From Gemmatimonadales bacterium (GTDB lineage Bacteria > Gemmatimonadota > Gemmatimonadetes > Gemmatimonadales > GWC2-71-9), in the NCBI GenBank assembly GCA_036279355.1, contig DASUJH010000045.1:1-60982 (forward strand): a stretch of 60,982 nucleotides of DNA, read 5' to 3'. The first letter of the stretch is position 1; every line of letters begins with the position of its first letter. The notes beneath the pieces were generated by a model. That model saw only the letters and a list, made by a program, of their open reading frames with translations. It was not told where the DNA came from and ran no database searches. Below, one piece after another: positions 19,908 to 24,772 of the stretch. Position numbers and translations under genes: made by a program.

Positions 19908-22406
19908 TCAGAGCACCGACGCCGGATCGCGATCGATGACGACCCGCGTATCGCCGCGGCGCGCGGGCCGCCGGGCCGCGTAACGCACCACGCGGCCGAG
20001 CACGCGCGAAGGCCCCTTGAGCAGCACGTGCCAGCGCCAGCGGTCCTTGATCCGCGCGAGCGGGCACGGCGCGGGCCCGAGCACCTCGACGGCGAGCGCG
20101 TGCCGCGCCGCGACCGCCGTGCACCAGTCGGCCACCTGCGCCGCGCGGCGGCTCACGGCCCGCTCGGCCGGCCCCGAGACGATGAGATTCACCAGCGCCA
20201 CGATCGGCGGATACGGCGGCGCCCGACGGGTCCCAAGTTCGGCGGCGAGGAATCCCTCGGTGTCGTGCTGCGCCGCGTGTACCAGCGCCGGATGTCGCGG
20301 GCTCCGGGTCTGGACCAGCACGCGGCCGCCTTTCGGCCCGCGGCCCGCGCGCCCCGCTACCTGCGCCAGCAACTGAAAGGTCCGCTCGGCCGAGCGGAAG
20401 TCGGGCAGGTGCAGGCCGGTGTCGGCGTCGACCACGCCCACGAGCGTGACGTTGGGGAAATCGAGCCCTTTCGCGATCATCTGCGTGCCGACGAGCAGAT
20501 CCACTTCGCCCCGCTCGACTGCACCCAGGATGCGCTGGTGCGACCACTTGGTGCTCGTGGCGTCGAGGTCCATCCGCGCCACGCGCGCCGCCGGATAACG
20601 CTCGGCGAGCACGCGCTCGAGCTGCTGAGTGCCGACCCCGCGCATCTCGTACACCGGGCTGGCGCATGCGCGACAGGTGAACGGCATCGGCTCCTCGTGC
20701 CCGCAGTAATGGCAGCGCAATGCGGACGGATGCCGGTGCACCGTGAGTGAGACCGAGCAGCGCGGGCATTGCCACACCTCGCCGCAGTCGGGACATTGCA
20801 GGAACGACGCCCAGCCGCGCCGGTTGAGCAGCAGCAACGCCTGCTCGCCGCGCGCGAGCACTGCGCCGACGGCGCCGTCGAGTGGCTCCGACCAGGCCAC
20901 CGGACCCGTGTCCGCGACCTTCGGCGCCGTCCGCAGATCGACCAGCTCGACCGGCGGCAGCGGCCGCATGCCGATGCGCTCGGGGAGGCGCACCATCTGG
21001 AGCCGCCGCGGTGCGGGAGCAGGGGACGATTCCGGCGGCGCGACCTGCCGCGATGCCGGCGAGACCGCCTGCACCGGAGCCGCGAGCGCGAGTGCCAGCG
21101 TCTCGAGCGAGGGCGTAGCGCTCCCGAGCACGAGCGCGGCGCCTTCGAGCCGGGCGCGCACGGCGGCCACGTCGCGCGTGTGGTAGCGCGGCGTCTCGCC
21201 GTTCTTGTAGGTGGCCTCGTGCTCCTCGTCGAGCACGATGATGCCGAGTCGCTGGACCGGCGCGAACACGGCCGAGCGTGCGCCGACCGCGACGCGGCGC
21301 TCGCCCCGGCGCAGCAGGCGCCAGGCGTCGGCGCGCTCGCCATCGGAGAGGCCGCTGTGGAGCACCGCGACGTCGTCGCCGAACGCGCCGCGGAACCGGC
21401 TCACCGTCTGGGGCGTGAGGCCGATCTCGGGGACTAGAACGATCGCGCCGTGCCCTGCGGCGAGCAGTCGCCGCACGGCCTCCAGATAGACCAGCGTCTT
21501 TCCGCTTCCCGTGACGCCGAACAGCAGCGCCCCCTCGCCGGGCGCGAGCGTACCGATCGCATGAAGCGCGGCGGCCTGGTCGCCGGTGAGATGCTCGGGC
21601 GGCGGCGTTGCCGGGAGCACCGCGAACGGATCGCGCACGCGCTCGGTGGACTCGACCCGCGCCAGCCGGCGCCGTACCAGCGCGCGCACCAGTGCGGCGC
21701 TGAAACCGAGCTGCTCGACCGCGTGGCGCACCGGCGCGTGGCCACCCAGACCCTCGAGCGCCTCGTAGAGCTCGCGCTGGCGGCGCGAGCGCCGGAAGAG
21801 CGCCTCGCGCTCGAGCAGCGTCGGCGCCGGCTCGGCGAGCACGAGGAGCCGCTCGGTGATGACCGCCGCCGAGGTATCGGGCGGCTCGACCCGGAGCGAG
21901 ACCGCGCCCACGCGCGCAAGCCGATCGAGCGCGTCCCACACGCTTCGACCCAGTCCGCGCGCCATCGATGCGACCGCCGCCTCACCACCCTGCTCTTCAA
22001 GCCACGCGAGCACTCGACCGGCAAGACCGCCCACGGTCCTCGGTGCCCGCTCGAGGGTCGCGACTACGCGCGATGCGCCCCAGAGCCCTGCCGGCAATGC
22101 GGCGCGAAGCGCGAGGCCGAGCGGCGCGCCGTAGTAGCCCGCCATCCACTCCGCCGCGCGGAGCAGCGGCGCGGGCATGGCCGGCTCCGCATCGGGCGCG
22201 GCGAGCAGGTCCTTGAGCGGCACGCCGTCCGATCCGGCAGACGGTGCATCGTCGACGGAGACCACGATGCCGACGAGCTCGCGCCGCCGCACCGGCACGA
22301 CCACGCGCGCGCCCGCCGACACGCGATCGGCGAGCGTTTCGGGAATGCGGTAGGTGTAGGCGGTGGAGAGCGGCAGCGGGAGTGCCACCCGCGCGAACCC
22401 GATCAT
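19908..22406 (-). CDS. priA: Primosomal protein N' (replication restart helicase PriA)
   Basis: A 3'-5' helicase that reloads the replisome at stalled forks. The 832-residue product has the PriA N-terminal DNA-binding module (FARVALPLPLSTAYTYRIP), Walker A GVTGSGKT, the DEEH box in VLDEEHEATYKNGETPRY, and a zinc-binding insertion with eight Cys in four CxxC pairs (CPDC, CPRC, CHYC, CRAC). Helicase motifs IV-VI follow (VGTQMIAKGLDFPNV, QVAGRAGRG). The ATG at 22406 overlaps the epimerase stop as ATGA. It is longer than E. coli PriA (732) mainly through a variable segment near residue 160-260. Confidence 0.96.
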   Translation of the reverse strand: MIGFARVALPLPLSTAYTYRIPETLADRVSAGARVVVPVRRRELVGIVVSVDDAPSAGSDGVPLKDLLAAPDAEPAMPAPLLRAAEWMAGYYGAPLGLALRAALPAGLWGASRVVATLERAPRTVGGLAGRVLAWLEEQGGEAAVASMARGLGRSVWDALDRLARVGAVSLRVEPPDTSAAVITERLLVLAEPAPTLLEREALFRRSRRQRELYEALEGLGGHAPVRHAVEQLGFSAALVRALVRRRLARVESTERVRDPFAVLPATPPPEHLTGDQAAALHAIGTLAPGEGALLFGVTGSGKTLVYLEAVRRLLAAGHGAIVLVPEIGLTPQTVSRFRGAFGDDVAVLHSGLSDGERADAWRLLRRGERRVAVGARSAVFAPVQRLGIIVLDEEHEATYKNGETPRYHTRDVAAVRARLEGAALVLGSATPSLETLALALAAPVQAVSPASRQVAPPESSPAPAPRRLQMVRLPERIGMRPLPPVELVDLRTAPKVADTGPVAWSEPLDGAVGAVLARGEQALLLLNRRGWASFLQCPDCGEVWQCPRCSVSLTVHRHPSALRCHYCGHEEPMPFTCRACASPVYEMRGVGTQQLERVLAERYPAARVARMDLDATSTKWSHQRILGAVERGEVDLLVGTQMIAKGLDFPNVTLVGVVDADTGLHLPDFRSAERTFQLLAQVAGRAGRGPKGGRVLVQTRSPRHPALVHAAQHDTEGFLAAELGTRRAPPYPPIVALVNLIVSGPAERAVSRRAAQVADWCTAVAARHALAVEVLGPAPCPLARIKDRWRWHVLLKGPSRVLGRVVRYAARRPARRGDTRVVIDRDPASVL

Positions 22407-23428
22407 CGCGCGCGGACGCCGAGCCCCGGTGCCGTGGGAAGCGAAAGCCGGCCGGCATCGATGCCCGCGCCGACGAAGGGATCGTCGGAGAGGAGCGCGG
22501 CCCCGTCGAGGTCCACGAGATCGACCAGCGGAGCGAGGTGCGCCGCCGCGGTGATCGCGATCGACGATTCGATCATGCAGCCCAGCATCACGGTCATCGC
22601 GTGCGCGCGGGCGACCGCCACCATCCGCAGCGCTTCGCGCAGGCTGCCGCACTTGGCGAGCTTGATGTTGATTCCGTCCACGACGCCGGCGAGCGGCGGG
22701 ATGTCGGCGGCGACGAGGCAGCTCTCGTCGGCAATGACGGGAATCCGGGCCGCGCGGGTCACGGCCGCGAGCCCCGCCAGATCGCGCGGCGGGAGTGGCT
22801 GCTCGAGCACGGTGACGCCGTACTCCTCGATCAGCGGGAGCATGCGGAGCGCGTGGGTGCGGGTCCAGGATCCGTTGGCATCGACCCGCAACTCCTTGCT
22901 GGTCGCGTCGCGGATGGTGCGGAGAATTTCCACGTCGCGCGGCGTCCCGAGCTTCACCTTGAGGACCGGATAGGGCTCGGCTTCGGCCACCTTGGCCCGC
23001 ATCTTGTCCGGCGCATCGAGCCCGATGGTGAAGGTGGACGGAGGCGCCGTGGTGGGGTCGAGTCCCCAGAAGCGCCAGAGCGGGACACCGAGTCGCTTGC
23101 CGGCGAGGTCGTGCAGCGCCATCGAGAGCGCGGCGCGCGCCGACGGATTTCCGGCGAGCGCGCGAGCGAACCGCGCGTCGGCTGCGTCGAGATCGAGCGG
23201 ATCGTCCGGGAGCTCGGGCCGGTACCTGCCGAGCGCGGCGAGCACCGTGTCGGGTGTCTCGCCGTAGTACGGGCTCGGCGCCGCCTCGCCCCACCCGACC
23301 GCGCCGTCGCGGTCGGTAACGCGCACCCAGACTGTGCGGTGCTCCGCGCGTCCGCCGCGCGCGATGATGAACGGATGGCGCGTGTGGAGGTCGAGCGGCT
23401 CGGCTTCGAGATGGAGCGCGGGGGGCAC
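22403..23428 (-). CDS. Dipeptide epimerase (enolase superfamily, L-Ala-D/L-Glu type)
   Basis: A muconate-lactonising subgroup enolase of 341 residues. The L-Ala-D/L-Glu epimerases convert a murein-derived dipeptide so it can be degraded. Seen: KVKLG (KxK catalytic lysines), VDANGSW, LEQPL and ADES (three metal ligands), and NIKLAKCGS with the opposite lysine. The GTG start at 23428 is followed by a typical N-terminal capping domain. Overlap with priA is four bases. Substrate specificity in this family varies, so Ala-Glu is the likeliest rather than proven; murein-recycling genes 12 kb away fit it. Confidence 0.85.
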   Translation of the reverse strand: MPPALHLEAEPLDLHTRHPFIIARGGRAEHRTVWVRVTDRDGAVGWGEAAPSPYYGETPDTVLAALGRYRPELPDDPLDLDAADARFARALAGNPSARAALSMALHDLAGKRLGVPLWRFWGLDPTTAPPSTFTIGLDAPDKMRAKVAEAEPYPVLKVKLGTPRDVEILRTIRDATSKELRVDANGSWTRTHALRMLPLIEEYGVTVLEQPLPPRDLAGLAAVTRAARIPVIADESCLVAADIPPLAGVVDGINIKLAKCGSLREALRMVAVARAHAMTVMLGCMIESSIAITAAAHLAPLVDLVDLDGAALLSDDPFVGAGIDAGRLSLPTAPGLGVRAR

Positions 23429-23520
23429 GGCGGACCTCGGTCGGGGACGGCGTGGAATATCGCGGGCGGGCGGCGGGGGCGCTACGGCGTCGCAGCGCGC
23501 TGCAGCGGGGGTCCGTGTGG

Positions 23521-23644
23521 GGCGGACAGAAACGCGGGGACCGCCCCTCCCGGCCGCTGCAGTTCGCTCGATCGGGGAGATCCCAAGGGGGGCTACGGCT
23601 CACTGATGCGTCCGTCCGGGGCAGCCCCCGCGTTTCTCTCCGCC
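23521..23644. repeat. Inverted-repeat element A (core 23557-23609)
   Basis: Arms 23521-23539 and 23626-23644 are reverse complements at 18 of 19 positions. Pairing can extend inward to 23547/23618 if two wobble pairs on the minus-strand RNA are allowed. The 53-bp core sits centrally between them and matches the core of element B in inverted orientation at 45 of 53 positions. Arms of A and B are unrelated in sequence. Confidence 0.7.
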
Positions 23645-23708
23645 GCCGGCCACTCTCCCAGAGCGCGGCGATGCCAGTGGCGCCGAGCGCTCGAGCTTTG
23701 GGGCGGCG

Positions 23709-23830
23709 GTGAGCCGCGATCGGGGTCGGTGCCGCGCAGCGGGCGTCAGTGAGCGGTAGCCCCGCTTGGGATCTCTCAAGTTGAGCGAACTGCAGTCCGC
23801 GGAGTGGCACCGACCGCGATCCCGGCTCAC
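23709..23830. repeat. Inverted-repeat element B (core 23743-23795)
   Basis: Arms 23709-23733 and 23806-23830 are reverse complements at 23 of 25 positions. The core lies exactly between them, 9 and 10 bases from the arms, and is the inverted counterpart of the element A core. It begins 28 bases after the stop of the deacetylase-like gene in the direction of transcription. No target-site duplication flanks it. Confidence 0.7.
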
Positions 23831-23857
23831 AATTACACGGAGCACCGACCGCGCGGC

Positions 23858-24772
23858 TCACGCGAGCGCCCGCACATGCGCCGCCACCCCGTCGGCGAGG
23901 CGCTCCGGCACGTAACCTCCCTCGAGCACGCCCACAATCGGCACGTCCGGCATCCGCTCCCGTAGCCGCCGAGTGAGCTCGGCGTAATGCTCCGGCTCCA
24001 GCGTGAACCCGCCGAGCGGGTCGCCCCGCATCGCGTCGAACCCCGCCGAGACGAGCACCAGCTCCGGCTCCCACCCGCGGGTCGCCGCCAGGATCGCCGC
24101 CCAGAGATCGTCGACATAGAGCGACGCGGGGCGCCCCGGCCCGCGCGGCACGTTGAAGATGTTGCCTACACCGCGCTCCTCCGCGGCGCCGGTGCCGGGA
24201 TACCATGGCCACTGATGCAGCGAGACGTAGCGGATGCCGGCGTCGTGCTCGACCAGCGCCTGTGTCCCGTTGCCGTGGTGCACGTCCCAGTCGACGATCA
24301 GCACCCGCTCGCGCCCGAGCCGCTGGGCGGCGCGCGCGCCGATCACCGCGTTATTGAGCAGGCAGAAGCCCATTCCCGTCGACGCGAGGGCGTGGTGTCC
24401 CGGCGGCCGCACCGCGGCGAAGGCGTGCGACGCCGCGCCGCGGCCGCCCGATGCCGGGTGCACGGATTCAACGGCGGACACGACCGAGCCGGCCGCGCCC
24501 GTTGCCGCGGACCAGCTCGCGCCGTTCATCATGGTATCGAGGAAAAGTACGCCGCCGCCGCGCGCGCTCAGCGACTCGAGGCGACGCAGATATGGCTCGG
24601 GGTGCACGACGAGAAGATCTTCGCGCCGCGCTTCCGGTGCCGTGACGAGCTCGGCCGCGGGTTCATCGCCCAGGCGCTCGAGCACGGCACGCAGCCGCGC
24701 CGGCGATTCCGGATGATCCGGCCCCGCGTCGTGGAGCAAACAGGCGGGATGGGTAAAGACGCGAACCGGCAT
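23858..24772 (-). CDS. Histone-deacetylase-family zinc amidohydrolase
   Basis: A class II-like HDAC/AcuC/APAH fold enzyme of 304 residues. Such bacterial enzymes remove acetyl groups from small amines such as polyamines or from proteins. Active-site features: RPPGHHA (tandem His), GMGFCLLNN, VDWDVHHGNGTQ with zinc ligands Asp and His, SAGFDAMRGDPLGGF with the third ligand, and GVLEGGY with the transition-state Tyr. It is the last gene of the glyS operon, 37 bases after the two-helix membrane protein gene. The substrate is unknown. Confidence 0.9.
   Translation of the reverse strand: MPVRVFTHPACLLHDAGPDHPESPARLRAVLERLGDEPAAELVTAPEARREDLLVVHPEPYLRRLESLSARGGGVLFLDTMMNGASWSAATGAAGSVVSAVESVHPASGGRGAASHAFAAVRPPGHHALASTGMGFCLLNNAVIGARAAQRLGRERVLIVDWDVHHGNGTQALVEHDAGIRYVSLHQWPWYPGTGAAEERGVGNIFNVPRGPGRPASLYVDDLWAAILAATRGWEPELVLVSAGFDAMRGDPLGGFTLEPEHYAELTRRLRERMPDVPIVGVLEGGYVPERLADGVAAHVRALA

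Follow-up and report, generated by a model that had tools for sequence, protein, structure and literature searches.

The window analysed here, a stretch of 60,982 nucleotides from a Gemmatimonadales bacterium, holds a pair of inverted hairpins in the spacer between two minus-strand genes, and the gap was rightly annotated at the outset as non-coding. Its features are given below, with scores from two covariance models, R1 (built on 11 copies) and R2 (built on 68 copies).

22403-23428, minus strand: MR_MLE gene, mandelate racemase/enolase superfamily (Pfam)
23509-23517, no strand: left terminal inverted repeat GGGTCCGTG, degenerate GGCTCCGTG, from comparison with the copies in contigs C19, C34, C25, and C60
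23521-23644, minus strand: left hairpin, with the CAGTGAG (functional) strand on minus
23540-23625, minus strand: left hairpin, modelled core and inner arms (R1, 85.8 bits; R2, 73.8 bits)
23645-23708, no strand: inter-hairpin spacer, which in sister copies contains an inner inverted repeat, GCTCCGAAA / TTTCGGAGC
23709-23830, plus strand: right hairpin, with the CAGTGAG (functional) strand on plus
23727-23812, plus strand: right hairpin, modelled core and inner arms (R1, 94.2 bits; R2, 86.9 bits)
23836-23843, no strand: right terminal inverted repeat CACGGAGC, from sequence comparison
23858-24772, minus strand: histone-deacetylase family gene (Pfam), which by synteny directly precedes the MR_MLE gene in relatives without the insertion

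Two 53-nt cores (23557-23609 and 23743-23795) face each other in inverted orientation at 85% identity (45/53), exactly where the initial annotation had placed them. Each sits, as it had also stated, within a hairpin of its own: positions 23521-23563 pair with 23602-23644 on the left and 23709-23750 with 23789-23830 on the right, and the CAGTGAG strands fold far better than shuffled sequences (z of -6.0 and -6.4, respectively; 0 of 200 shuffles reach either). The hairpins had been taken as the full extent of the element; they stand, and the unit proves larger. Immediately outside the pair, on both sides, is a terminal inverted repeat of 9 bp in degenerate form, GGCTCCGTG, bounding an inserted unit of ∼335 bp (roughly 23509-23843) with both hairpins inside. 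Just beyond the left terminal repeat, positions 23494-23508 carry a CTGCAGCG-like stretch similar to the 3' part of the core, which may, from its sequence, be the remnant of an older copy. The earlier failure to recognise a known RNA family agrees with Rfam 15, strict and permissive scans of which gave no window match at the gathering score and only chance-level matches at the loci.

The two flanking genes lie 27 to 69 nt apart in eight relatives, 204 nt apart in a ninth, and 429 nt apart in the window, and a search of those relatives' gene-pair loci with the R2 model found no copy. Because a gap of 27 to 69 nt in relatives compares with 429 nt here, the window element has been inserted between two tandem genes whose adjacency is conserved.

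Searched for in the source genome and in relatives, the core has other copies in both. Besides the window pair (contig C45), the source genome (60 contigs, 3.25 Mb) holds at least three further pairs, plus two copies that are single or truncated. Contig C19 carries the same pair between other neighbours, at 87% identity over ∼340 bp; C34 carries a pair at 77% identity to the window pair, C50 a more diverged one, and C25 and C60 the single or truncated copies. The arms of the two hairpins had been called unrelated. Those of the window pair do differ, each fully paired, but “left” and “right” arm types recur in paralogous pairs of the same genome, and the three most alike pairs (C45, C19, and C34) each combine one left with one right type; the pair therefore spreads as a unit. 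An inverted pair would be the usual moving unit in the source genome. The few arm changes that have arisen recently, between C45 and C19, affect one side only, and older divergences are compensated. Two types of terminal loop, TTGGGATCTC and TTATGATCTC, are found in the pairs of C45, C19, C34, and C50; these four pairs show every possible left/right combination, and some of them have identical arms (window 23557-23795; L042, L043, and L046). Judged from these combinations, the sequences suggest that loops have been exchanged between copies.

That a unit of ∼335 bp moves whole, and that pairs of the source genome terminate near the degenerate 9-bp repeat GGCTCCGTG, is what would be expected of a conventional MITE. 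Such an element would have arisen by deletion from a DDE-type insertion sequence, would carry terminal inverted repeats, and would contain the hairpins only incidentally. MITEs keep their termini while the interior drifts. Here, it is the interior core that is conserved across genera, the 9-bp terminal repeat is limited to pairs of the source genome, and other lineages have different termini. No target duplication was recognised when the sequences of copies were inspected by eye, nor was a parent insertion sequence found next to them. We consider a MITE origin improbable.

The element is dispersed within one family of Gemmatimonadales, whose members are soil and groundwater bacteria. A covariance model built from the matches, a step proposed with the initial annotation, works: of the 102 family genomes, 32 have copies by R1 and 33 by R2. 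Among the 288 genomes of the order searched, R2 also finds a single diverged copy outside the family, in a genome of a sister family (G199), and it finds no further copies among 395 phylum genomes. Carrying genomes hold from 1 to at least 38 copies (the highest number in G086), these numbers being lower bounds because only the best 11 to 43 candidates per genome were scored. An exact-core scan of 84,980 species genomes returned 19 stretches, all from Gemmatimonadota, and phage, plasmid, and viral-contig collections gave no match to the element.

What unites the copies is a fold. Hairpins are 110 to 150 nt long, and the strand reading CAGTGAG...GCGAACTG forms a rod. Outward from a central helix, CAGU/ACUG, a GU/CA loop leads to a stem of 6 to 7 bp, a symmetric GNA/GNA loop, and Watson-Crick arms of free sequence (median, 25 bp); inward, a GA/GA loop is followed by GC/GC and a loop of ∼30 nt containing TT...GATCTC. 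The covariation of arm pairs, which had been named as a check, is pronounced: in 67 distinct copies, both partners have changed in 18 of 20 pairs, and 94.8% of cells are paired. The covariation score of 0.561 exceeds that of shuffles (0.165 ± 0.011; 0 of 500 reach it) and falls below 0.1 in registers slid by 1 to 3 columns. The 67-copy alignment was fitted to the model and is hence biased towards the structure, and a MAFFT alignment of 11 copies agrees with it.

Inverted-repeat correction, by template switching or hairpin repair, perfects quasi-palindromes, and paired arms could in principle be its by-product, with no selection on folding. Whole arm blocks could then be copied at once, as a comparison of the left hairpins of C45 and C19 with that of C34 would allow. 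Such correction would, however, erase mismatches, yet the GNA/GNA, GU/CA, and GA/GA loops persist across genera. It should also make G-T and A-C wobbles equally frequent. On the CAGTGAG strand, arm wobbles are instead G-T in 124 cases and A-C in 37 (p = 4e-12) or, counted by element, G-T is in excess in 56 and A-C in 9 (p = 2e-9); these p-values are indicative, since copies share ancestry. Arms were scored symmetrically for these counts. The kept mismatch loops and the wobble bias already disfavour correction, which we regard as highly improbable.

The bias holds whatever the direction of the neighbouring genes (G-T:A-C of 34:17 where both are sense and 30:6 where both are antisense), so it is the single-strand folding of the CAGTGAG strand that matters. 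A cruciform, a double-stranded binding site, and palindrome correction are all disfavoured because none predicts G-T over A-C.

Wobbles of this kind fit RNA as well as single-stranded DNA. Each copy's own strand might be transcribed into a rod-shaped RNA, acting as a protein-binding regulator or spreading by reverse transcription in the manner of a SINE; strand-specific G-U tolerance, compensatory pairs, and the symmetric purine-rich internal loops typical of structured RNA all point this way. Against it, elements lie in either orientation to neighbouring genes, including antisense to both, and no promoter-like site was found at them with the sigma-70 consensus, which may not apply to this phylum. 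Of the 102 family genomes, a reverse transcriptase was found in only 12, and the source genome is not one of them. An RNA is thus conceivable but on the unlikely side. Of the two alternatives in the initial annotation, a small dispersed structured element is upheld by the copies, the covariance model, and the covarying arms, and a new regulatory RNA, still possible, loses ground through the two-way orientation and the lack of promoter-like sites. Mobility and REP-like placement explain the distribution, so a regulatory role is not needed for it.

Elements are located at gene 3' ends and are depleted from divergent spacers. They occupy 19 convergent, 6 divergent, and 38 tandem spacers, against length-based expectations of 3.6, 22.9, and 36.5 that derive from a small sample, the element-free spacers of the same loci; the gene calls came from a simple script based on codon scores. 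Pairing recurs in several genera, and pairs within 450 bp are predominantly divergent (11 divergent, 1 convergent, and 2 tandem). Many elements adjoin intergenic short tandem repeats, (GACGGCAT)n or (GATTGGGC)n (L102, L103, L104, and L105 in G087; L118 in G092). A different dispersed hairpin of ∼110 nt, GGCGGAGGGTG...CACCCTCCGCC, lies beside one element (L101:2488-2609, also G087) and has a dozen or more copies in that genome.

The search for a mobiliser covered transposases, reverse transcriptases, and neighbouring genes. Y1_Tnp is present in 59 of 102 family genomes and is equally common in those without the element; none was found in the copy-rich genomes G086, G022, and G075. Its presence does not correlate with the element, and we rejected it as mobiliser, as we did reverse transcriptase, which shows no correlation either. 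In one genome (G019:C1:4535717-4536255, L108), a Y1 transposase domain at 4535717 lies ∼150 bp from an element at 4536169, the sole such adjacency seen. Pfam and PHROGs tallies of 131 neighbour genes revealed no recurrent or enriched mobility gene.

We favour, with moderate confidence, the view that the element is a new, oversized, non-autonomous mobile hairpin of the REP/BIME kind. Several observations weigh against it: no transposase accompanies the element, mobility genes are not enriched among its neighbours, target duplications were not recognised, and the wobble bias is equally compatible with RNA. By analogy with TnpA-REP, which reads REPs, the folded single-stranded DNA would be read by an enzyme supplied in trans. 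Arms could drift freely because pairing alone, and not sequence, would be read there. A more specific version, in which a lineage-specific mobile element has its folded single strand read by an enzyme through the successive conserved non-canonical loops and its arms by shape only, with exchangeable terminal loops, is put forward as a speculation that is probably wrong in at least some part. If true, it would amount to a new type of mobility system that recognises hairpins and depends on neither Y1 transposases nor integron integrases.

The likeness to REP/BIME as a general kind is close. Both are dispersed intergenic palindromes with many copies per genome and inverted pairs with heads together; both lie preferentially between tandem or convergent genes, close to 3' ends, and are depleted between divergent ones, and in both stem letters vary while the palindrome is kept. 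Placement and pairing of this sort are described in surveys of REPs (PMC3733652). REPs measure 20 to 40 bp, whereas the element measures 110 to 150 nt, with conserved tandem mismatch loops and a terminal loop of ∼30 nt. Among described groups are the GTAG- and CGTC-tagged REP superfamilies (PMC3733652) and RAYT-associated REPs (PMC2817692). GTAG REPs bear the tetranucleotide at a free end and are associated with RAYT (Y1_Tnp); here, only 27 of 83 copies contain GTAG, which then lies within the terminal loop, and the element has no such link. CGTC REPs, which like the element lack a dedicated transposase, are defined by an unpaired end tag, a stem of 8 to 9 bp, a loop of 4 to 5 nt, and a CCA-like tail (PMC3733652). 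CGTC does precede CAGT in 76 of 83 copies, but it is internal, partly paired in a mismatch loop, and followed by a different hairpin rather than placed at a free end.

Integron attC sites are recognised as folded single strands, their structure conserved beyond their sequence; the element shares the second feature and would share the first. The attC R' and R'' boxes (RYYYAAC/GTTRRRY) were found on either strand in 0 of 81 copies, which rules out attC identity, and there are no cassette arrays. ERIC/RU-1, RU-2, and Correia/NEMIS are likewise non-autonomous intergenic hairpin repeats, of 100 to 350 bp (PMC2229807), but have conserved termini, whereas the element has a conserved core and free, covarying arms and belongs to another host clade. 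We found no description of it in the open-access literature.

Because the tested features differ, the element is separate from GTAG and CGTC REPs, conserved-end MITEs, and attC sites; it is a new family within the bacterial dispersed palindromic repeats that fits none of those described. As a comparative case, it offers a bacterial repeat whose conservation rests on single-strand folding and not on sequence, in a poorly studied phylum, where copy number and covariation suffice to define the recognised structure. Like the CGTC REPs, it raises the question of how palindromic repeats lacking a dedicated transposase are mobilised.
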